From: Lentilactobacillus senioris DSM 24302 = JCM 17472
Lineage (GTDB): Bacteria; Bacillota; Bacilli; Lactobacillales; Lactobacillaceae
NCBI RefSeq assembly: GCF_001436555.1
Contig: NZ_AYZR01000004.1
Span: forward strand, 372,001-436,000
Direction: 5' to 3'
Length of the DNA: 64,000 nucleotides
Positions 15,748 through 35,787 of the stretch are shown here, piece after piece. The notes under the pieces are model-generated. The model had not been told where the DNA came from. It saw only the letters and a list, made by a program, of their open reading frames with translations, and did not search any database. Positions within the stretch are counted from its first letter, which is position 1; every line of letters begins with the position of its first letter. A program made the translations under genes and the position numbers.

Positions 15748-15764
15748 TTAAATAACTAAGAAAA

Positions 15765-15897
15765 AACACTAGGGGTGCCTTTGTGGCTGAGATGGAATTA
15801 TCCAATCCCTTGGAACCTGTAAGTTAATACTTGCGTAGGGAATGTGTGCTGTTTTACTGAGCCGTTACCCGCAAGTAATTAGGTAGCGGCTTTTTTG
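15765..15897 (+). promoter_or_regulatory. TPP riboswitch with terminator, controlling thiMDE
   Basis: The THI element core is present: ACTAGGGGTGCC (15768-15779), GTGGCTGAGATGG and ACCTGTAAGTTAATACTTGCG-TAGGGA. The terminator is GCCGTTACC/GGTAGCGGC with six T (15861-15896). CGCAAGTA inside the terminator (15870-15877) is complementary to TACTTGCG of the aptamer 3' arm (15828-15835), giving the antiterminator. Thiamine pyrophosphate should therefore stop transcription of the operon. Confidence 0.95.
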
Positions 15898-22172: not shown

Positions 22173-22333
22173 TTGAAAAGTTGGTTTTGATTCACTTAAG
22201 AATTGCTATCAATCCCTTATGCTGTAGGTGTTCGTACTAATAAAACTTCGGACTACTTGTTTTAGTTACTTCCTAATAATATAGACCTTGTGAAAAGGGC
22301 CCTTGGATCAATCCAGACAAAGGAATGAGTCCA

Positions 22334-22882
22334 ATGAAGTATCCAAGAGAAGCAACTGACGTTTTTGAAACGCCCCAACAAGCAGCGTTTGAATTCTTAT
22401 TAACTGGTGACCACCAAAATGTTATTTATGGTGCTATCAAACGGCTGCATATTTATCGAAGCTATGAAGCATATGACGATCTAGTACAAGAAGGTCGACT
22501 GGCATTTGTTCGGAGCTACTTAAGAGCTCCGGAGGCTGTTCGTAAGAATGAACATAAATTATTAGTATATATCTACCAAGGAGTTTATTGGCACCTCCTT
22601 AATTGTTTAGACCAATTCCGCCGCAAAGGAGAGCATCAGACGGAAGTAACCACGCTACCGGTACAAGCCACCGACTTAGAGCCGACGCTGGAAACTAACC
22701 AATTGTACCAGCAATTACTATCGGTATTAAGTCCTAACGAACGGCGTTATCTGACAGCCGCTTATGTTCGAGGGCTCAACGTGTCCGAAATGGCACGTGA
22801 GTTTGAGGTATCGCGCAAGACGATTTACTGGTGGAAAGCCGGCGTGGCACAAAAAGCCAAAATAATTTGGCACAAAGGGTAA
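22334..22882 (+). CDS. sigma-70-like factor (ComX/SigH-like)
   Basis: A 182-residue protein with two sigma regions. Residues about 42-100 give region 2, including YDDLVQEGRLAFVRSYLR and a long helix ending in FRRKGEH. Residues about 125-178 give region 4 with a helix-turn-helix (GLNVSEMAREFEVSRKTIYWW). There is no region 1.2 or 3. I prefer ATG 22334, nine bases after AAAGGA; ATG 22325 touches the ribosome site. It precedes DUF1659 and DUF2922 genes, a linkage seen in other Firmicutes. It could be the competence or a stress sigma factor. Confidence 0.75.
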   Translation: MKYPREATDVFETPQQAAFEFLLTGDHQNVIYGAIKRLHIYRSYEAYDDLVQEGRLAFVRSYLRAPEAVRKNEHKLLVYIYQGVYWHLLNCLDQFRRKGEHQTEVTTLPVQATDLEPTLETNQLYQQLLSVLSPNERRYLTAAYVRGLNVSEMAREFEVSRKTIYWWKAGVAQKAKIIWHKG

Positions 22883-23476: not shown

Positions 23477-23861
23477 TGGTTAAAATAGGCAATTGAGGAA
23501 AGAAAATCGAATAAATTCTTAAAATAATCATATATGAACCTAATAAGAATCTTTTGTGAAATACATGTGTAAAAGCGGAGATGACAGACTTTACGAGCGA
23601 AATTTTAGCTTTAACTAATTTTGACATAAAACGGCCGCAAAAGTTGATTTAAAGCGGTTTGGAATTTTACAAACATAACAGTTTGGTGACACTAACCGAT
23701 TAAGCTTGCCTGGTCCAATTTGGGCGTTTATACTGATGTTTGTAAAGTTCAAGACCTCCTAAAATAATCGCTGTTGATAATAAAATAACAATCGTGATAT
23801 AATTTTTCGGGAGCTCGATGAGCTACATAAATAATTTTATTTCAGTATGGAGGATTTTATA
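23477..23861 (+). promoter_or_regulatory. long leader and promoter of S-layer gene A
   Basis: No gene is visible in this 385-base stretch. Promoter: TTGATA (23774-23779), 18-base spacer, TATAAT (23798-23803). The 5'UTR carries the small hairpin AGCTCGATGAGCT (23812-23824). GGAGG at 23850 is the ribosome site for ATG 23862. From 23785 onward the sequence is nearly identical to the inverted copy ahead of S-layer gene B (32792 downward). Confidence 0.8.
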
Positions 23862-25130
23862 ATGCAATCTAGTTTGAAGAAATCATTATACGTTGGTTTA
23901 GCAGCCCTTGGCTTCGTAACCGTTGCCGGTGCAGCTAACGCTAACACTGCAAGTGCTAAAACTTACGCTAAAGTAACAAGCAACAAGTGGATTGGTGCTA
24001 CTGCAGCTAACAACATTACTTTCAATGGTAACAACGCCCTTTACACTAAGGCTGGTACTTTGAAAGGTGCTAAGACTGTAGCTACTACTACTACTTTGAA
24101 GCGTCTTGCTAAGTCAACTAGCAACAAGGACAACTTCGTAGCATACCGTGTTGCAACTACTAACCGCGGTTCAGTTTACTACAAGGTTGTATCACTTGAT
24201 AAAGACTACCGTGGCTGGATCTACGGTGGTAAGAGCACTGATAGCTTTGCTGGTGGTATCGAATCATACAGCACTACTAAGGATGCTAAAGATGTAACTA
24301 CTGCAACTTACAAGAAGTTTGCTCAAGTAGGTACTACTAATGATGGTACTATGTTAACTTACAAGGACCCAATGTACACTGTATACGGTTCAGGTCGTGC
24401 TATCAAAGATTCAACTCCATTCAAGAATGACGTATTGAAAGTTACTAAGACTGTAACTAGCTCACGTGATGGTAAAGAATGGTCATACGTTGAAGATGAA
24501 GCTAACACTTCTGTTAATGGTTGGATTCTTAGCTCAGCTTTGAAAGATGCTAACGGCGAAGTTCCTGCATCACAAGGTGTAACTATTAATGTTATTGACA
24601 AAGCTACGGGTAAAGTTGTTGCTACTCAAGTTGTTAAGTATACCGGTGCTGAAAATGGTACTATGAATGTAACTAATAGTACTGTAAACATTCCTGCTGG
24701 TTACTCAGCTGATAAGAACCCATGGGCAAAAGGTGCTGAATCTGTTGCCAAGGGTGGTTCAACAAACTACTACGTAAACCAAAAGGATAAAACTACTCAA
24801 ATTAACTTTGGTATGAAGAGTAACACTAACAACAAAGAAGCTGGTGTTACTGTAAATGTTGATTTTTACGATATGTTAAGTAAAGATCAAAAAGATAAGC
24901 TTGTTGCAGCTACAAAAGATGCAGCTAACCAAGTTGTTCAAGGTACTACTGTAACAACTAGTAACATCGAAAAGATTCTTGACCAAGCTGGCCTTAAGAA
25001 CTTTGACTTCACCGGTAAAGATGGTAAAACTTACACTGCAACTTATGTTAAAGTAACACCTGATTCAACTGTTGCTAACGCTTCAATTGTTAAGGGTATT
25101 GATGCTTACTTTAACATTGCTGCTAAGTAA
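23862..25130 (+). CDS. S-layer protein, Lactobacillus brevis type (paralogue A)
   Basis: A 422-residue secreted protein beginning [18 protein letters not shown], the signal peptide of the brevis/hilgardii/buchneri S-layer family. I place the start at 23862; an ATG 15 bases earlier contains the ribosome site. The N-terminal half ([48 protein letters not shown]) is the family's repeated, wall-binding domain. The C-terminal half from about residue 235 is variable ([18 protein letters not shown]). Codon use is strongly biased to GCT/ACT/AAC, suggesting high expression. The promoter is strong. Confidence 0.88.
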
Positions 25131-25149
25131 TTTAATATATTTACCTTAT

Positions 25150-25181
25150 AAAAAGAGTGCTTAATTGCACTCTTTTTTTGT
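25150..25181 (+). terminator. Rho-independent terminator of S-layer gene A
   Basis: AAAAAGAGTGC-TTAATT-GCACTCTTTTTTT. Confidence 0.88.
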
Positions 25182-25270
25182 ACATAAAATTAAATTCTTT
25201 CTGCGCATTTTGAATTGTTATGATAAACTGAAAGGCGTTTAACAAAACAATTATTATTTTGTAGGAAATG

Positions 25271-25903
25271 TATGAATTCAAGTTTAAAAAAATCCCTATA
25301 TTTGGTCTTGCTGCTTTAGGTTTTGTAACTGTTGCTGGTACAGTAAACGCTAATAATTCTAGTGCTAAGACATACGCTAAAGCTACTAGTAACAAGTAGA
25401 TTGGTGCCGGTACTGACAATAATGTTGTGTTGAATGGTACCAATGCTCTTTACACTAAAGCTGGTACTTTAAAGGGTGCTAAGCTAGTTGCTTCTACTAC
25501 CACTTTGAAGAAGTTGGCTAAATCTAAGAATAGTGAAGATAACTTTGTTGCCTATCGTGTAGCTACAACTAATAAAGGTGCAGTTTATTACAAGGTAGTA
25601 TCCCTTGATAAGCAATATCGTGGTTGGATCTATGGTGGTAAGAGTACTAAGAGCTTTGCTGGTGGGGTGAAGAGCTACACTACTTTCAAGAATAGCAGTG
25701 TTAGTGCTTCTGATGCTAACAAGAACTTCACTTTCAAGAAGACTGGGACCACTAATAATGGAACTATGTTGACTTATAAAGCTCCTATGTACACCGCTTA
25801 TGGTGCTGGTCGAGTAATCAAGAGCTCAGCTGCTTATAAGAATGATGTTTTAACCATTACTAAGCAAGGAACGCGGACTCGTGAAGGCGATTAATGGGTA
25901 TAC
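25271..25903 (+). pseudogene. S-layer paralogue C, 5' part of a split pseudogene
   Basis: The start (ATGAATTCAAGTTTAAAAAA) encodes the S-layer signal peptide but has a two-base deletion after SLY, then the frame resumes as [21 protein letters not shown] nonsense TAG replaces the Trp codon after SNK (25396-25398). A further TAA at 25892 replaces the Gln of EGDQWVYV. The fragment ends at GTATAC (25898-25903), where a 4.9-kb segment begins; the same reading continues at 30837. Three lesions plus the insertion show that the gene is dead. Confidence 0.9.
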
Positions 25904-26086
25904 TTAAATTGAACAGTTTATTTTAAATTAATTTGTTGATATCAATCTTAGGAAAGCAGGATTTTGCACTTATTTCAAGAGTATTTAGAGAAGTATTGTT
26001 ATTTAGAAGAATTTATATTATACTTTCGGTGTTTAATCTAGGTGTACCCAGTTTGATTAAGGATGCTTTGTTTTGGAGGAGTTTCT

Positions 26087-27823
26087 ATGGAAAAACAACA
26101 TTACAAGATGTATAAAGATGGCAAAAAATGGGTTTTTGCAGCAGTTACTGTAATTGCTTTAGGGGTTGGGTTAAGTGAAAGTACATATATTGTAAAAGCA
26201 GATAGTACTGTACCTGTCACATCAACTGATAGTTCAGTAAATACTGGTGCCGCCAGCAAGAATCCTACTGTACCTGTCACATCAACTGATAGTTCAGTAA
26301 ATACTGGCTCTGCCAGCAAGAATCCTACTGTACCTGTCACATCAACTGATGATTCAGTAAATACTGGTGCCGCCAGCAAGAATCCTACTGTACCTGTCAC
26401 ATCAACTGATAGTTCAGTAAATACTGGTGCCGCCAGCAAGAATCCTACTGTACCTGTCACATCAACTGATAGTTCAGTAAATACTGGTGCCGCCAGCAAG
26501 AAAACTAGTTTATATGCTACACCAACTGATAATTCAAAAAAAATTAAATCTTCACTTGTTAGTAATCATTTAGAAGAGAAAGACAATCTTGAAAACGTGG
26601 CCTTATCATCTAATAGTGTTCAACCAGCTACTTCCATTAGTGATGATACTTATTTAAAAAATTTAGGAATTGATATTAACGACCTAAATACTAACAGTGT
26701 TCTAAAATTAGCTTCTTTGTTCCATATTTTTGCAAATCAAGCTAGTTTATCAGCGGATACTAATGGTAATTTAGCTGTTAAAATTTTAAATGGCTCTAAC
26801 GATTTTGGTACACGTGGTGATTCATACAATTTAACTAGCGGTGATATTTATTATATTCAACAATTGGCCAAGAATCTTCAAAGTAACGCTTTTAGAAATA
26901 AAACATTTAATCATGTAGTATTAGGTAAAGATGTTAGTGTATCAATTGAAAATAACAAGGTCTTGATCAATGGTATCACTATGGATAATTTAAAACCTGA
27001 AGATGTTTATCAAGATATCAATGGGCAGACCTATATTGATTTTAGTGATGTATTTCAACAACTAGTAAAGGCATCTACCAGTTATGCTAGTACTCCTCAG
27101 TCAAAAGGTGTTATTTCAAATTATGATGACATGAATAATCGCTATGTTGATGTTTCGAAAGTAGCAACTGGAACACAAATTATTTATGTAAATGTTCCAT
27201 TTAAATATTTGAGTGCTTCTCAGCCGATTACGATCAAGGGAATATCTCATTTAGAAAATGGTCCTACTGTCGTCATTAACGTTACTGATATTCCAAATGG
27301 TGATCAAAATATTTCTACACAAGTTCAATTATATTATGATGATGGAACTAATTCTTTACCCAATAGTGAAGGACATTCAGAGCCTAACCATGTATTATGG
27401 AACTTAGGTACCGGTGAACAAGCCTTCAATTTCAGCAGTGGTCGGTTTATGGGAAGTATTTTAGCACCTAATGCGACTATTAATGCTGGAGTTAACATTG
27501 ATGGGAATATTGTTGCTAATATCGTTAATATAACCGGCGGTGAATCGCACAGATGGGATATTCATCCACAACCGACGCAGCCAACTCAACCGACGCAGCC
27601 AACTCAACCGACACAGCCAACTCAATTGATTAAAACTAATGTTAATGAGAAAAAAACAGTTTTATTGGTAAATGATAAAGAAAAAAATCCTTCTAAAAAT
27701 AGAGAAGCTTTACCACAAACTAGTGAAAAATCAGAAAGCTCTGTTTCAGCTCTAGGTGTCTTATTACTGGCTTTAGGAAGTTTAACCAGTTGGCTGACTT
27801 TCAGAAAAAAGTGGAAAGATTAA
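26087..27823 (+). CDS. LPQTS-anchored adhesin with KxYKxGKxW signal and choice-of-anchor-A domain
   Basis: A 578-residue surface protein; ATG 26087 behind TTGGAGGAG. The N-terminus KMYKDGKKWVFAAVTVIALG is a KxYKxGKxW signal peptide. Five repeats of 20 residues follow (VPVTSTDSSVNTGAASKNPT). About residues 225-490 form a choice-of-anchor-A domain, recognised by NFSSGRFMGSILAPNATINA and GNIVANIVNITGGESHRWD. A PTQ repeat stalk follows, then the sortase signal LPQTS, a hydrophobic helix and a basic tail. Such proteins are usually glycosylated on Ser/Thr, and a glycosyltransferase gene follows. Confidence 0.87.
   Translation: MEKQHYKMYKDGKKWVFAAVTVIALGVGLSESTYIVKADSTVPVTSTDSSVNTGAASKNPTVPVTSTDSSVNTGSASKNPTVPVTSTDDSVNTGAASKNPTVPVTSTDSSVNTGAASKNPTVPVTSTDSSVNTGAASKKTSLYATPTDNSKKIKSSLVSNHLEEKDNLENVALSSNSVQPATSISDDTYLKNLGIDINDLNTNSVLKLASLFHIFANQASLSADTNGNLAVKILNGSNDFGTRGDSYNLTSGDIYYIQQLAKNLQSNAFRNKTFNHVVLGKDVSVSIENNKVLINGITMDNLKPEDVYQDINGQTYIDFSDVFQQLVKASTSYASTPQSKGVISNYDDMNNRYVDVSKVATGTQIIYVNVPFKYLSASQPITIKGISHLENGPTVVINVTDIPNGDQNISTQVQLYYDDGTNSLPNSEGHSEPNHVLWNLGTGEQAFNFSSGRFMGSILAPNATINAGVNIDGNIVANIVNITGGESHRWDIHPQPTQPTQPTQPTQPTQPTQLIKTNVNEKKTVLLVNDKEKNPSKNREALPQTSEKSESSVSALGVLLLALGSLTSWLTFRKKWKD
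26207..26506 (+). repeat. five 60-base tandem repeats in the adhesin gene
   Basis: The unit starts ACTGTACCTGTCACATCAAC and repeats with a period of exactly 60 bases, with only a few substitutions (GGCTCT for GGTGCC in unit 2, GATGAT for GATAGT in unit 3). Encodes the Ser/Thr-rich 20-residue repeats. Being nearly identical and in frame, they can vary in number by slippage. Confidence 0.95.
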
Positions 27824-27845
27824 CTAAACAATCTTGAAAGAAATC

Positions 27846-27882
27846 AAAGGTGGGAGTGAAATTAATCACTCCCACCTTTGAG
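27846..27882 (+). terminator. terminator after the adhesin gene
   Basis: AAAGGTGGGAGTGA / TCACTCCCACCTTT hairpin. A short T-run follows, so partial read-through into the glycosyltransferase gene is possible. Confidence 0.75.
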
Positions 27883-27904
27883 TTCATAATAGGAGGTTCT
27901 ACAA

Positions 27905-29395
27905 ATGCATTATTTTATCACATCAAGAATTGACAGTTTAACTTCGGCCATTGAACTAGCCGAAATCAAACGACTAAAACTTTTTAAAACATTAAATATT
28001 CCGGCAAAAATTGTCACACTCGACTACTTTCGCTATCAGCGTAAAATTTGGAAGGAATTGGGTATTAGTAACGATGTTATTAACCCCGTTGAATATTTTC
28101 AAAAATTGGACACGAGTAAAAATAGCACTCACGACGTATTAAAAAAAGTGTTGAATGATAAAAAGTTAACTATTAGAGAAAACCAGGGATTTATTGACCA
28201 GAAACTTCGAGTTCAGACTACAGAATATCAAGGGGAAATTGATTATGTCACCTATTTGGACCGCTGGGGATTCACTGATCGTCGGGACTTCTACGTTAGT
28301 AATCACCTTAGTTACTCTGAATATTTTGATGATGGTGGTAAATTGATCACGCGTACTTACTATAACGGTCAAGGAGACACTTTTTTAACTTATCATTATC
28401 GCGGTGGAGATGGTAATATCCCCGTTTTAACCCTGATTCAACTGAAAAATTCAAACTGTTGGTATCAGTTTGACACGGAAGCTGATTTTTGGGCTTATTT
28501 CCTAGACTATTTAATTAAAAGAGATCCTGCAGCTGTCCTATACTCCGATCGAGAAGATTATGTTCTCAAACCCTTTGAATTAATGACAGAACCAGCCATA
28601 AAATTTGTTGTTCTACATTCTGCCTTTACAAAAAATGCTCAGCCACAGGGCGAACCCTTTCCATATATAAAACAATTATTTGAACTGCAAAGTAAAATTA
28701 ATGGTATTATATGTGCAACTCGGCAAGAAGCTATGGACCTTAAAAATCGTCCAGAAATACATGTACCGTGTTATTCAATTCCCGTGAGTTACTTAACGGA
28801 GGAACTATTGACCCAATCTTCTCCCTTTGAAGATAGAATTCCTGGTCAAATAATTGCAATCGCACGTTTAACACCAGTTAAACAACTGGACCAGTTAATT
28901 AATTCAGTTATTCTTACTCACCAAAAGTTACCGTTTGTCGATTTGAAAATATATGGTTACGATGATGATTGGCAGAATTATGAAACCTCAACTCGCTTAC
29001 ATCGAATAGTTGAAGATGCTAACGCTGATGGTTATATTCACTTTTGTGGCTATCGAAAAGACTTAACATCAGTTTACCGAACTGCTGATATTGCAGTATT
29101 GACGAGTGCTTACGAAGGTTTCTCGATGGCGATTTTAGAAGCTCTCGGGTATAGTTGTCCAGTAGTTAGTTACAATATCAATTACGGCCCCAAAGAACTT
29201 ATTAAGGACAAAAAAACAGGAGTCCTAGTTCCTGCTGGCGATACTTGGACCTTACAGCGTACTTTGTCACATTTATTAGCAAATCGCAATATCTTAAAAC
29301 ATTACAGTCACGAGGCAAAGTCAGCAATGATTCCCTACTCGCAAAAAAATGTAGCAGATAAATGGATTAATTTTATCCATCAGATTCAAGGCTGA
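27905..29395 (+). CDS. GT4 glycosyltransferase, GtfA/TarM-like
   Basis: A 496-residue GT-B fold enzyme. The N-terminal 290 residues resemble GtfA/TarM proteins, with an inserted beta-rich domain (TYLDRWGFTDRRDFYV, ITRTYYNGQGD). The C-terminal donor domain shows IIAIARLTPVKQLDQLI, the CGYRKDLTSVYRTADIAV stretch and the EX7E motif in SAYEGFSMAILEALG. Such enzymes put GlcNAc or glucose on serine-rich adhesins or on teichoic acid. Located 80 bases after the adhesin gene in the same direction, it most likely glycosylates that adhesin. No gtfB partner or SecA2 genes are seen nearby. Confidence 0.83.
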   Translation: MHYFITSRIDSLTSAIELAEIKRLKLFKTLNIPAKIVTLDYFRYQRKIWKELGISNDVINPVEYFQKLDTSKNSTHDVLKKVLNDKKLTIRENQGFIDQKLRVQTTEYQGEIDYVTYLDRWGFTDRRDFYVSNHLSYSEYFDDGGKLITRTYYNGQGDTFLTYHYRGGDGNIPVLTLIQLKNSNCWYQFDTEADFWAYFLDYLIKRDPAAVLYSDREDYVLKPFELMTEPAIKFVVLHSAFTKNAQPQGEPFPYIKQLFELQSKINGIICATRQEAMDLKNRPEIHVPCYSIPVSYLTEELLTQSSPFEDRIPGQIIAIARLTPVKQLDQLINSVILTHQKLPFVDLKIYGYDDDWQNYETSTRLHRIVEDANADGYIHFCGYRKDLTSVYRTADIAVLTSAYEGFSMAILEALGYSCPVVSYNINYGPKELIKDKKTGVLVPAGDTWTLQRTLSHLLANRNILKHYSHEAKSAMIPYSQKNVADKWINFIHQIQG

Positions 29396-29702
29396 TATGT
29401 GGTAAGAAATAATTAATTTCATAATATGTTGATTCGGTAGTGAAACTGATGTTTTTAGGATCTTTAACCGAATAGTCAGATGGATTTCGGCTCCAAGTGA
29501 ACTGAAAATACAATTTAATACTCAAATAGTGTCATTTGTCATTGCTGATCACCCCCCAACGTATGCTAAGGTTAAATCTGTTCCTACTTCCATTGGAATT
29601 CCTAGGTATTAAAAGGCCCTCGAAAGTTGCCCTAAGCGCACAACCTCTTTCGGAGGCTTTTTGATTGCTTTCAACTTTTTTAATCAGCTTTCTAGCAGTT
29701 TT
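29396..29702. other. gap without a gene after the glycosyltransferase
   Basis: No coding frame seen. A hairpin with T-run (GGCCCTCGAAAGTT...AACCTCTTTCGGAGGCTTTTTG, about 29615-29665) may terminate the upstream unit. Confidence 0.45.
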
Positions 29703-29707
29703 TTTGG

Positions 29708-29721
29708 GGAACGCACGTTTG
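29708..29721. promoter_or_regulatory. LexA (SOS) box ahead of the umuC remnant
   Basis: GGAACGCACGTTTG agrees with the Gram-positive LexA/DinR consensus CGAACRNRYGTTYG at 13 of 14 positions. A TACAAT -10 box follows at 29731-29736. Confidence 0.75.
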
Positions 29722-29759
29722 CTTTTGTGCTACAATACAGGTAAAAGCTAACGAAAGTG

Positions 29760-29925
29760 ATGAAATTGTTTACTGATGATGAACTTCATGGGGTGTTCTT
29801 CTTAATCGATAACAAGTCCTTTTATGCGAGTTGTGAAGCCGTTGCCCGGGGGGCTTAATCCTTTAAAAGCCCCATTAGTGGTCCTTAGTGAAGCTGAAAA
29901 TAAAAGTCCGTCGATTCTGTTATTC
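29760..29925 (+). pseudogene. 5' remnant of a umuC/dinP-type translesion polymerase gene
   Basis: ATG 29760 encodes GVFFLIDNKSFYASCEAVAR, the start of a Y-family polymerase (UmuC/ImpB), including the metal-binding D in LIDNKSF. A one-base gain in a G-run (CCCGGGGGGCTT) shifts the frame; the sequence goes on in the next frame as LNPLKAPLVVLSEAENKS. After about 55 residues the similarity ends. The SOS box upstream is intact. Confidence 0.85.
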
Positions 29926-29965
29926 ACTTTATTTTTAGATTACAGACTACATCTTATCCCATAAT

Positions 29966-29998
29966 AAAACCCACTTCTCAATGTGAGAAGTGGGTTTC
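29966..29998. terminator. strong bidirectional hairpin
   Basis: AAACCCACTTCTCA-ATG-TGAGAAGTGGGTTT, a perfect 14-base inverted repeat. Confidence 0.7.
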
Positions 29999-30015
29999 GA
30001 GCAACCTTGCCCAAT

Positions 30016-30190
30016 CTATTTTATAATCTGGTATTCATTACTCAAAGGGCCGCTGAACAACTCAATTGCTGTGTCACCAGTCAGCGGGTCTATGCGCTTC
30101 ACAGATACAACAAAAGTCGTAACTAATTTATGTGCAAGATTAAAGGCATCACTATGATATATAATTAGACTTTCCAATTTTGGTAGATTG
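30016..30190 (-). pseudogene. unidentified coding remnant
   Basis: The minus strand is open for about 58 codons ending at TAG 30016-30018. The product contains IIYHSDAFNLAHKLVTTFVV and VKRIDPLTGDTAIELFSGPL. No start or ribosome site is seen, and the upstream end meets the IS30 remnant. I do not recognise it. Confidence 0.45.
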
Positions 30191-30195
30191 CAAAT

Positions 30196-30607
30196 TTAAT
30201 CCGAATTTTTGGACAAATTTGTCAGCATAACCTGATACGGTGTTTGCCAGTCGAGTATTTTAAGCGGTCGCTGGTTAATTTGGAGTAACGTCGTCGTTAA
30301 ATCTTGAGCACTAATGTGCTCAAAACGAGTCCCTTTAGGATAAAAATAACGTAAATTCCGATTAAAGCGTTCACTACTACCACGTTTAGCTGGCGTATAA
30401 GCATGGCAGTAATAGGTCATAATACCATCTTGTGATTCAAGTGATACTAGCCCACTAAACTCCGTGCCACGGTTCACAGTAAAGCTGTGCACCGGACCAT
30501 TAAAAGTGGTTAGGAACTTAGTTAGTGCTTCATTAACAGTCGCTGTCGTCCGATCTTTTAACCGGTATAACCAACGGTAGAGCGATTCAGACGTACGACG
30601 ATGTTGC
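30196..30607 (-). pseudogene. IS30-family transposase, 3' remnant
   Basis: The minus strand encodes about 137 residues of the catalytic half of an IS30 transposase: SLYRWLYRLKDRTTATVNEA, VNRGTEFSG (second DDE residue context, with R for the usual N/D) and AYTPAKRGSSERFNRNLRYF (Glu of the triad), then KGTRFEHISAQDL. The N-terminal half and both inverted repeats are missing or unclear; 5' similarity stops at about 30607. It is inactive. Confidence 0.88.
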
Positions 30608-30836
30608 AGAAGTGGCTTGCCACGGGGCTAACTTTGAATTGGTGGGCGACAACGGTGGTAGGTTAATGAAACTATAGCTAAACCGTTCCACCGTTATTAA
30701 TGGGATTAAAGCGGAAGACTACGGCTTTATGGATCGCCCAGGATTGTTTGACTAATAATAAATTAACGGAGCTCCCTAGCAATTAGGGAGCTCTTTTATT
30801 TTGCCCAAATTCCGGCAGTCAACGTGTGTTTTTTAA
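30608..30836. other. decayed sequence with a terminator before the pseudogene junction
   Basis: Short open fragments on the plus strand (HGANFELVGDNGGR, and VINGIKAEDYGFMDRPGLFD ending at a stop near 30752) look like a frameshifted gene end of unknown family. A terminator GAGCTCCCTA/TAGGGAGCTC with TTTT follows at 30760-30800. Confidence 0.45.
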
Positions 30837-31502
30837 GTATACGTAACTGATAATACCAACGCTAAAGTATCTGGTTGGATTCTAAGAAGTGGTTTAACTG
30901 CTACTGATAGTGTTCCTACTACTAAGGGCGTAACAGTTAACTATATTGATGCTACTAATGGTAAAAATGTTGGTAGTACCGTAATTGCCTTCAGTGCTAC
31001 TAATTCAGATGCTAGCAACCCAGTAATGAACATGAACTACAAGGTTAGTGATATCTCTAAGGTAGTTCCTACTGGTTACACTGATAAGGCTAGTGAAACT
31101 TCTGCTTCTGGCTTGTCACTTGGATTTGCTTCCGGTGCTAATTATGCAGCTGTCGTTTCAGCTACTAGTGGCTCTACCGTAAGCTACTATGTTGCTACTA
31201 CTAAGTCTGCTTCTATCAAGTTTACCTTGAACGTTGCTAAGTCTGATGGAACTACTTCTGCAATTTCTGTTAACGGCTTAATTGACGCTAATGGTTACAC
31301 CATTCAATCTAGCACTTTGGCTAACTTAAATGGTAGTGTGGGTGCTAAGGCTACCAGTGCAAAGATTTTGGCTGCCGCTAAGGCTCAAGGTCTCGGTACT
31401 TTGACTAACCCTTCATCTAAAATTACCTATACTTTAACTAGTACCACCGACACTGAATTTGGTGGAACTGCTGCCTTAGTTTATACAGCAGCTAAAAATT
31501 AA
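30837..31502 (+). pseudogene. S-layer paralogue C, 3' part of the split pseudogene
   Basis: Starts at GTATAC and continues the frame lost at 25903: YVTDNTNAKVSGWILRSGLT, as in paralogue B ([20 protein letters not shown]). The open frame runs 221 codons to a stop at 31502; its variable C-terminal half (VTVNYIDATNGKNVG, GLGTLTNPSSKITYTL) differs from the other paralogues. An ATG at 31026 could start a shorter product, but it lacks a signal peptide and ribosome site, so it is probably not made. Confidence 0.88.
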
Positions 31503-31510
31503 TTAAATTT

Positions 31511-31540
31511 AAAAGACACGCTTCGGTGTGTCTTTTTGAT
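31511..31540 (+). terminator. terminator of S-layer pseudogene C
   Basis: AAAAGACACGC-TTCG-GTGTGTCTTTTT hairpin. Confidence 0.85.
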
Positions 31541-31603
31541 AAATAAATTTATATTTGGGAATGTTAGTATTATTAATGTTCTTAAAAATTTCATAAATCA
31601 AGT

Positions 31604-31646
31604 AATAAAAAAAGCTTTGGATAATTATTCCAAAGCTTTTTTATTA
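31604..31646. terminator. bidirectional terminator, serves S-layer gene B
   Basis: AAAAAAGCTTTGGA / TCCAAAGCTTTTTT with flanking A/T runs. Confidence 0.85.
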
Positions 31647-31657
31647 CTTGATTTATA

Positions 31658-32716
31658 TTACTTAGCATCATCTGCTGCGTAAAGTAGTAAATATCCAACG
31701 TTTTCTTTATATTTACCATTATTGGTAATATTAAGTTTATATTTTTTACCGTTGTATATAATATTGTCCAATCCAACTGAAGATATTTTAGACTTAATTG
31801 TTGCTACAGGGACTTCTTCCCCATCGTTTCCAGTTGCGATGGTGTACATATAGTCATCTACTGAGCTAGAAATTTTAGCAAGTGATTGAGCACCATTAAC
31901 TCCATCAACAGTTTGAATATCACCTAAATCAAAGTAAGATCCACCAATAATTTTAGCTTGATGCTTAATACTGAAAGGAGCCTGCTTAGGTTCTGGTGTT
32001 GAAGGAGTGCTAGGTGTTGAAGGAGCATCATTTTTAATTGTAGTTAAACCGCTCTTAAGAATCCAACCGTTTACAGTTGAGTTAGCTTCGTCAGTTACGT
32101 ATACCCATTGGTCGCCTTCGCGAGTACGAGTACCAGTCTTAGTAATAGTTAATACGTCATTAGCGTATTTAGTTGAGTCAGTAATTTGACGACCTGAACC
32201 ATATACAGTGTACATTGGGTTCTTGTAAGTCAACATAGTACCATCATTAGTAGTACCTACTTTAGCAAACTTGAAGTTACCAGTAGTAGTTGCAGTAGCG
32301 TCTTCTTTGAAAGTGGTGAAGTTTTCAAGACCGCCGGCAATAGTAGAAGTACTCTTACCACCGTAGATCCAACCACGGTAAGTCTTGTCAAATGAAACTA
32401 CCTTGTAGTATACAGAACCACGGTTAGTAGTTGCAACACGGTATGCTACGAAGTTTTTCTTGCTGCTCTTTGAATCTGCAAGGTCCTTAACAGTAGTAGT
32501 AGTAGCTACAATCTTAGCACCTTTTAAAGTACCAGCCTTAGTGTAAAGGGCGTTAGAACCTGTAAAGTTAACATTAGTTTTAGTCATGGTAACATTTGAT
32601 GTTACTTTTGCATAACTTTTAGCACTTGCATTGTTAGCGTTAGCTGCACCGGCAACGGTTACGAAGCCAAGGGCTGCTAAACCAACGTATAATGATTTCT
32701 TCAAACTAGATTGCAT
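31658..32716 (-). CDS. S-layer protein, Lactobacillus brevis type (paralogue B)
   Basis: A 352-residue secreted protein on the minus strand. Start ATG 32716 behind GGAGGATTTTATA. The first 35 residues ([18 protein letters not shown]...) are identical at DNA level to paralogue A. The wall-binding half is conserved ([51 protein letters not shown]). After a PSTPSTPEP linker the C-terminal 110 residues are unique ([15 protein letters not shown]). The -10 TATAAT is kept but the -35 position reads ATTTAA instead of TTGATA, so expression should be weak. Confidence 0.87.
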
Positions 32717-32893
32717 TATAAAATCCTCCATACTGAAATAAAATTATTATATAGCTCATCGAGCTCCCGGAAAATTATATCACGATTGTTATATAATTTA
32801 AATATTATTTTAAAATAAAGATTTAAAGGTTATTTTTACCACTATTTGTTAGTGACTTATACTTGTAAAAGATAATAGTAAAAAATTTCGATG

Positions 32894-33022
32894 ACATTAG
32901 GGGAGCCCGTTTGCGGGCTGAGACGACATGGTCGGACCCTTGAACTTGATCTGGTTAACACCAGCGGAAGGAAATGTTCATGTACTTTCAGTGACCTCTT
33001 CTGTCTTCGAACACGGGAGGTC
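32894..33022 (+). promoter_or_regulatory. TPP riboswitch with ribosome-site-masking hairpin, controlling thiW
   Basis: THI element: ATTAGGGGAGCCCG, GCGGGCTGAGACG, then GACCCTTGAACTTGATCTGG and AACACCAGCGGAAGG. The expression platform is a 12-pair hairpin, GACCTCTTCTGT / ACACGGGAGGTC (32993-33022), followed by TTTTATTTT. Its 3' arm contains the GGGAGG ribosome site of thiW, and the T-run reaches the TTG start. Confidence 0.93.
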
Positions 33023-34312: not shown

Positions 34313-34548
34313 ATGGCTTCCTCCAACATTAAGTAGATTTAGTTGCTAGTAGCAACATAACAATTTTAAGATAGCATAAAATAAATCTAATGGAAACGCT
34401 TTATTTAATTTGAATTAATTGTCCATATAAATAGATTTATATTTCAGGATGTTAGTTAATTATTGAAGATGATTTGTTACACAAATGTGAATGCGGATAC
34501 TTCCTTAGCATGATACAATTACATAAGAACAAATATGGAGGAAGAATA

Positions 34549-35787
34549 ATGAATCAAAAGATTAAGACCACGCTTTTAACTACTGCAGCTGCGATGGGAT
34601 TACTAGTTGCTGGCAGTTTGAACGCTAGTGCCAAAACTTATCCTATTGTCACTGCTAATAATCCAGCTCGGGGTGGGGCAACCACTCGTAATTTTGTCCC
34701 CACAGGAAGTAACGCTTTATTTACTAAGGCGGGAACTTTAAAGGGTGCTAAATTGGTGGCTAGTAAAGCTACCATGGCTAAGTTAGCGGAATCTAATAAA
34801 GGCCAAGACTACTTCTTTGGTTATCGAGTAGCTCGTACTAGTAATGGCTATTTCTACATGAAGGTAGTTTCTTTCGATAAGAAATATCGCGGTTGGATCT
34901 ATGTAGGGAAGGTTAACCCACAAGGGGCTTACCAAAATACTGCTGGTGGATTGAAGTTAGCCAATACTTCTAAAGCGGCTAAGATGCCTAGCAATACTCA
35001 AGTACAATTAGCTGATCCTGGGACTAGTCATGTGATTTGGAATTTTCCTTACATGGCACAATATGGTTCTAAAAAGTTAATGAAAGACACTTCTGATTAC
35101 GCCAATGATACCTTTACGGTTACTAAATCCCGGCGGTTAACTCGGGGCAACACCCTTTACTACAAGGTTGTTGACAATAACGATAGTGATATAACTGGTT
35201 GGATCTACTACAAGGGAGTTACTTCCGATGCTGCTGAAACTGAACCAAGCAACCCTACTAGTAGCAATTCTGTAACCGTAACGTTTAAGGATGGAACTAC
35301 TGGTAAAACTGTTGGTGAAAAAACATTAGTGGATAGTTCTATTACTGCCGGTAGCCAACCAACTTACGCTACTAAGTTTGTTACTACTAAGATTGGTAAT
35401 GGTAACTTAGTTGCTGGTAGCTTGAAGTCTGTCATGCCTGGTTACGACTATGAAGGATTGACTACTGCTCAACATAAAGCTAATGGTAATGCAATTATTG
35501 GGGCTAAATATGGTAGCACCATTACGATCTTCGTTTCCCCTAACGTTGCTCCTAAGAATGGCTTTTTAGTTACTTATTTTGATCTAACTAAAACAGCGAT
35601 TGTAGGTAAGAGCGCAGTGGTATCTTCTAGCAGTCAAACTGCTAAGCAATTGTTTGCTAGCACGTTTAAAGATGGCGGCAGTGTGACTGTCAATGGTAAG
35701 AAATACACTTACAAGCTAGCTGATAACCGTAGTATTTCTCAAGATGCAAAGTTGGGAACTAGCATTGCGGTGAATGTAAGAAGCTAA
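34549..35787 (+). CDS. S-layer protein paralogue D
   Basis: A 412-residue secreted protein; ATG 34549 behind TGGAGGAAG (MNQKIKTTLLTTAAAMGLL signal peptide, mature start near AKTYP). Homologous to the other paralogues in the wall-binding half ([39 protein letters not shown]). It lacks the shared 5' DNA of A and B. A second domain begins at NSVTVTFKDGTTGKTVGEK (near residue 245), similar in style to the variable end of A. A structured element starts directly at its stop codon. Confidence 0.85.
   Translation: MNQKIKTTLLTTAAAMGLLVAGSLNASAKTYPIVTANNPARGGATTRNFVPTGSNALFTKAGTLKGAKLVASKATMAKLAESNKGQDYFFGYRVARTSNGYFYMKVVSFDKKYRGWIYVGKVNPQGAYQNTAGGLKLANTSKAAKMPSNTQVQLADPGTSHVIWNFPYMAQYGSKKLMKDTSDYANDTFTVTKSRRLTRGNTLYYKVVDNNDSDITGWIYYKGVTSDAAETEPSNPTSSNSVTVTFKDGTTGKTVGEKTLVDSSITAGSQPTYATKFVTTKIGNGNLVAGSLKSVMPGYDYEGLTTAQHKANGNAIIGAKYGSTITIFVSPNVAPKNGFLVTYFDLTKTAIVGKSAVVSSSSQTAKQLFASTFKDGGSVTVNGKKYTYKLADNRSISQDAKLGTSIAVNVRS

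Follow-up and report, generated by a model that had tools for sequence, protein, structure and literature searches.

Two coat-protein genes that differ in sequence, A on the plus strand and B on the minus strand, lie convergently in Lentilactobacillus senioris DSM 24302, and their starts are almost identical. Sequence comparison indicates that the inverted 5′ blocks carrying these starts have exchanged DNA, or that one arose as a copy of the other, since the divergence from Lentilactobacillus senioris YQ005, the nearest named relative found, whose locus genes we call slp1 and slp2. The comparison also supports the left flank of A as a conserved expression site, made up of a sigma-factor-like gene, an upstream promoter-like site and a TTGATA −35 box. 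A flip of the segment between the blocks would change the gene that stands behind the coat promoter, and such an inversion, of which one orientation is assembled, appears to be the likeliest use of the block. The locus falls within a 64-kb window (the whole stretch of DNA that was analysed) of a 1.57-Mb assembly in nine contigs, and its features are as follows.

22325..22882, plus strand: sigma-factor-like gene, adjoining the putative S-layer expression site on the left (weak Pfam sigma-70 matches)
23706..23734, plus strand: additional promoter-like site farther upstream, TTGCCT-17-TATACT, not within the repeat (scan, 9/12)
23774..23803, plus strand: promoter-like site for gene A, TTGATA-18-TATAAT, preceded at the −10 box by TG (scan, 11/12)
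23785..23961, plus strand: inverted 5′ block, left copy (alignment)
23862..25130, plus strand: gene A, predicted brevis-type S-layer protein of 422 residues, at the putative expression site (open reading frame, genus-wide matches)
25271..25907, plus strand: third slp gene, C, N-terminal half, with stops and a frame change (sequence, homology)
25908..30836, no strand assigned: insert of 4.9 kb that splits C, GTATAC at either edge (sequence, Pfam, plasmid matches)
30837..31502, plus strand: gene C, C-terminal half (sequence, open reading frame, homologues)
31658..32716, minus strand: gene B, 352 residues, with an S-layer-type N-terminal half and an unusual, short C-terminal half
32617..32792, minus strand: inverted 5′ block, right copy (alignment)
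32774..32802, minus strand: promoter-like site for gene B, TTTAAA-17-TATAAT, preceded at the −10 box by TG (scan, 10/12)
32889..32989, plus strand: TPP riboswitch before a divergent gene that we take to be thiW-like, right border of the locus (Rfam RF00059, 71.2 bits)

To the right of the thiW-like gene is a fourth slp-like gene (34546-35787), which has a GW domain and a different signal peptide and is also found in L. senioris YQ005. TPP riboswitches occur on both sides of the locus, at 15761-15859 on the left and at 32889-32989 before the thiW-like gene, and the open reading frames behind the left one are presumably thiamine-gene-like.

The inverted 5′ block is homogenised between A and B

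The initial annotation of this DNA had described a block at 23785-23961 on the plus strand that recurs at 32792-32617 on the minus strand, and alignment bears it out in both position and content: the copies, of 177 and 176 nt, differ by three mismatches and one 1-nt gap; they start in the promoter spacer, take in the −10 box, the leader and the ribosome site, and stop where the signal peptide stops. The perfect core, put there at a minimum of 115 bases, is 117 nt long (23830-23946 with 32632-32748), and all six of the inverted exact matches of at least 20 nt, more than 50 nt apart, that were found in the window lie between A and B. The sequences 5′ of the block, which the initial annotation had seen to differ, are unrelated. 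On its 3′ side A and B stay 76% alike for another 540 nt, after which they diverge.

Such likeness stands apart from what is seen elsewhere in the genus. Among 114 slp gene starts from 35 stretches in 23 of 24 genomes, a set that covers the main clusters rather than all slp genes and excludes seven partial slp matches, 310 within-genome slp pairs were compared; the A/B block identity of 97.7% is followed by 74.6% for the next best pair, with a mean of 58.8. Synonymous divergence between A and B is 0.000 over codons 1-33, which lie in the block, and 0.538 over codons 34-225, while the block dS against YQ005 slp1 is 0.91 for A and 0.94 for B, about the level found for eight flanking genes compared with the same strain (dS 0.81-1.41). 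In the block tree A joins B (95/95) by a path of 0.017, as against a path of 0.45 between their coding parts; the alternative B+slp1 grouping is not rejected there (p-AU 0.12). It is this contrast between the absence of synonymous change within the genome and a dS of about 0.9 to slp1, together with the short block path and the long coding path, that argues that DNA was exchanged between the two blocks or copied from one to the other.

Slp gene starts on both strands were found at this locus alone (1 of 18 fetched regions with at least two starts, 0 of the 17 others), in a count that excluded the seven partial matches, two of which (in genomes G001 and G017) point the other way from their neighbours. 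The slp clusters fetched from Lentilactobacillus are mostly same-strand arrays, with up to 20 slp matches per genome among the matches listed. Breaks in the contigs of relatives at slp starts were considered as a sign of identical repeats and dropped, since the two breaks for which another contig end matched had shared ends of just 26 and 35 nt. Also set aside was a 5-bp leader hairpin (AGCTC-GAT-GAGCT) as a recombination site or mRNA element, its folding being not clearly above that of shuffled sequences (z −1.1 and −0.4; −1.4 in L. senioris YQ005). A search of viral contigs for an exact match to the leader pattern returned none.

An expression site adjoins gene A

The TTGATA −35 box assigned to A by the initial annotation holds, in a TTGATA-18-TATAAT site that scores 11/12, the highest value in 23500-33000, with its −35 box outside the repeat and its −10 box inside. 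The scan returned 40 sites where chance would give 30.8; a score of 9/12 alone therefore means little, and the upstream TTGCCT-17-TATACT site, at 9/12, is near this chance level. Similar promoter-like sites can be read by eye at the same places before YQ005 slp1, and the region 5′ of A is 57-70% alike to that of slp1 in three 60-column steps, whereas the region 5′ of B is without such likeness. Of the 23 other genomes of the genus, 13 have homologues of the sigma-like gene (34-84% identity) in their slp-gene stretches, and this gene could regulate S-layer expression.

For B, an ATTTAA −35 box at 18-nt spacing had been proposed, which understated its upstream region: TTTAAA-17-TATAAT, preceded at the −10 box by TG, constitutes an extended −10 promoter-like site scoring 10/12, and 96 nt separate the B block from the divergent TPP riboswitch. 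The −35 box and the upstream site of A lie outside the block. Based on this site, the B promoter is probably weaker than that of A, but not surely silent, and the description of B as a silent copy is to that extent weakened.

The coding parts of A and B have different relatives

Within the genus, gene A is matched in every one of the 23 other genomes, and outside it in none of 36, among the matches listed; it shares 67-73% DNA identity over 9-41% of the query with four L. brevis plasmid records, whose genes are annotated as S-layer protein or GW-domain protein. By DNA similarity, A is thus assigned to the brevis-type S-layer proteins, as the initial annotation had it; the assignment extends to B for its N-terminal half only, and through A. 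Neither A nor B had a Pfam match at E 0.01, no relative with a solved structure was found (best E 0.21, with an unrelated name), structure models from three-row alignments were too poor to use (mean pLDDT 52.8 for A and 34.4 for B), and codon bias gave no useful separation of A, B and C.

In the tree of coding parts after the block, B groups with slp1 of L. senioris YQ005 (93/96, just short of the tool's star). The grouping of A with slp1 is rejected (p-AU 3.6e-5) and that of A with B marginally so (p-AU 0.04), while p-AU is 0.195 for A+slp2 and 0.446 for A+C+slp2. The YQ005 gene at the conserved expression site is therefore a relative of B and not of A; B-type sequence stands at the expression site in YQ005 and at the far end in this genome, a distribution that fits exchange through the block.

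The N-terminal half of B, compared with YQ005 slp1, which has a stop in that strain, gives dN 0.076 and dS 0.463, as under purifying selection, and the B reading frame is intact. Both slp1 and slp2 look damaged in the YQ005 assembly: slp1 (L035:10001-11263) carries an in-frame stop, and slp2 (L034:41-1300) is disrupted close to its start, at a break between contigs with sequence that resembles an IS30 end.

B had been proposed as a full alternative S-layer protein, a proposal weakened by its last 123 residues, for which 201 sampled family genomes, that of B among them, yield one match outside its own genome, at E 1.2e-4. The C-terminal part of B occupies 31661-32029, and a search at E 1e-4 among the slp stretches covered found no relative of it. 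For L. brevis SlpA, PMC2571106 states that the first 145 mature residues suffice for wall binding and that residues 179-435 assemble the layer; by analogy with these regions, B may anchor normally yet assemble differently, or not at all.

Gene C is collinear with slp2 of L. senioris YQ005

Between A and B lie two features that the initial annotation does not mention: gene C, which contains stops and a frame change, and a 4.9-kb insert that splits it, carrying a KxYKxGKxW/LPXTG adhesin and a glycosyltransferase (names from Pfam) and a Y-family polymerase remnant and an ISLpl1-type IS30 fragment (polymerase and ISLpl1 names from plasmid annotation). With identities to L. brevis plasmids of 96.8% in the glycosyltransferase part and 92.1% in the adhesin part, the insert is to all appearances plasmid-derived; the GTATAC at both its edges is as a target duplication would leave. 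It makes up more than half of the 9 kb, and the A-B segment would be about 4 kb without it.

C has the orientation of slp2 in L. senioris YQ005, and their 3′ flanks align with a score of 50, whereas 300 shuffles gave 23 at most. The 3′ flanks of A and slp1 score 26 against at most 22, thus beating 300 of 300 shuffles, but C and slp1 also score 26, slp terminators being alike. The A-slp1 match is thus weak and not specific, and collinearity was rested on C alone. B, between C and the thiW side, is an extra gene in a place where YQ005 has none. With C collinear and B added, a single inversion since the split is inadequate, and an even number of inversions, or replacement by conversion, would be required; to judge from C, no net inversion has occurred since the split from YQ005, and an odd number is not seen. 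The assembly contains one orientation only, and none of the three places in the genome that match the 5′ region is an alternative junction. The proposal of an invertible locus thus gains from the indications of recent exchange or copying, from the expression site and from the B-type gene at the YQ005 site, while the 9-kb flip itself is set against a single assembled orientation and a collinear C.

Recombination functions in the genome

No match to the serine recombinase family of Din-type invertases (PF00239) or to the Piv-type family (PF02371) was found in the genome. PF00589 gave six matches, five of them over the cut-off, all on two contigs other than that of the locus. A recA gene is present, and a perfect repeat of 117 nt is enough for RecA-dependent exchange. 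A Din-type serine invertase has been suggested for L. acidophilus, as a suggestion rather than a settled definition.

Discussion

We consider it on balance probable that the locus exchanges slp cassettes at a fixed expression site, through a 9-kb inversion by homologous recombination. The left flank, with its sigma-like gene, upstream promoter-like site and TTGATA −35 box, would form the fixed site, and the block shared by A and B would be the substrate of recombination. Because the block begins in the promoter spacer and includes the whole signal peptide, a crossover anywhere within it should preserve promoter, leader and reading frame, and because its copies are inverted, the crossover should invert about 9 kb. 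The coding part of B would thereby come to stand behind the full promoter region, while that of A would move to the thiW-side site, which offers an extended −10 promoter-like site only, with a weaker −35 box. RecA-dependent homologous recombination is the likely machinery. The sequences themselves show the block, its recent homogenisation, the scarcity of amino-acid relative to silent change in the N-terminal half of B, and another gene at the site in YQ005. That the segment inverts in vivo, that the two promoters differ in strength, which machinery acts and that B can serve as a coat protein are inferred.

Homogenisation of the block is equally the outcome expected of gene conversion without inversion, which alone suffices for it; short tracts would be swapped, the segment would never flip and each gene would use its own promoter. 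The orientation of C as in L. senioris YQ005 and the retention by B of an extended −10 promoter-like site agree with such a history, which we nevertheless hold to be rather unlikely: it leaves the relative of B at the first position in YQ005 unexplained unless tracts longer than the block were converted, and inverted repeats that convert within one chromosome are expected sometimes to cross over. Less probable still is a one-off rearrangement that set B beside thiW with a copy of the block, after which exchange ceased and B began to decay as C has done. That B is an extra gene relative to YQ005, between C and thiW, that it is short and its C-terminal half has almost no relatives, and that the neighbouring C is broken would all follow from such an event; the dN of 0.076 against a dS of 0.463 in the N-terminal half of B, relative to slp1, and its intact frame speak against decay.

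The block could also owe its likeness to function, if selection kept the best leader and signal peptide for heavy expression; it is matched in 20 of the 24 genomes of the genus, across which leader and signal peptide are recognisably alike. We regard this as very improbable, since synonymous differences are wanting within the genome in spite of a dS of about 0.9 to YQ005 slp1, and since the other within-genome pairs compared reach at most 74.6%. The same dS contrast and the comparison of 310 pairs disfavour chance.

The logic of cassette exchange by inversion is already known from the slp segment of L. acidophilus, and the locus described here would be a variant of it. In that species slpA and slpB are oppositely oriented and share a 5′ region, and their invertible segment was reportedly described by Boot et al. 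in 1996. According to PMC6015585, the segment measures 6 kb, 99.7% of cells have slpA at the expression site, this site has two promoters, and slpB is without one; PMC7858073 reports inversion when slpA is inactivated, and expression of slpB in the ileum. The two loci have in common a pair of slp genes on one segment (of about 9 kb here), one of them away from the expression site, and two promoters there correspond to two promoter-like sites here. They differ in that B, unlike slpB, has a promoter-like site, in that the segment here encloses a broken slp gene and an insert of plasmid origin, and in that inversion is reported there and inferred here. Because the brevis-type proteins are unrelated in sequence to those of the L. 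acidophilus group (PMC2571106), the comparison with slpA/slpB made by the initial annotation holds as a likeness of logic and not of descent.

The sap locus of Campylobacter fetus likewise varies its S-layer by DNA inversion at one expression locus. Dworkin and Blaser (1996) are said to have placed a single promoter on the invertible segment there, whereas in the present locus the promoter flank is fixed and it is the genes that would change place. Closer in protein type is Levilactobacillus brevis ATCC 14869, which also has several slp genes; expression of its slpB, slpC and slpD varies with conditions, differing with aeration, and slpC was long held to be silent, while recombination, inversion, a switch or phase variation go unmentioned in the main text (PMC9504196). 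Our literature searches, which mostly left subscription papers uncovered and so do not imply unpublished status, found no paper on phase variation or inversion of brevis-type S-layers in Lactobacillus and none on a Lactobacillus slpB S-layer with an invertase. A search on slp inversion in buchneri gave only review-like titles, and one on Lentilactobacillus slp gave no such title among the matches listed.

More tentatively, and with some doubt, we suggest that the brevis-type group reached a switch like that of L. acidophilus independently, run by RecA without an invertase, between a full and a short protein that share a wall-binding half and differ in the outer half, the flipping segment also bearing an adhesin and a glycosyltransferase of plasmid origin. 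If the segment does flip, the same solution, in which a fixed promoter region and an inverted block of leader and signal peptide serve exchangeable coat genes, would have evolved in two unrelated families of S-layer proteins of lactobacilli, and the block, rather than the protein, would be what matters. It would also provide a simple example, amenable to testing, of a surface switch that needs no dedicated recombinase, in a genus with up to 20 slp matches per genome among those listed.
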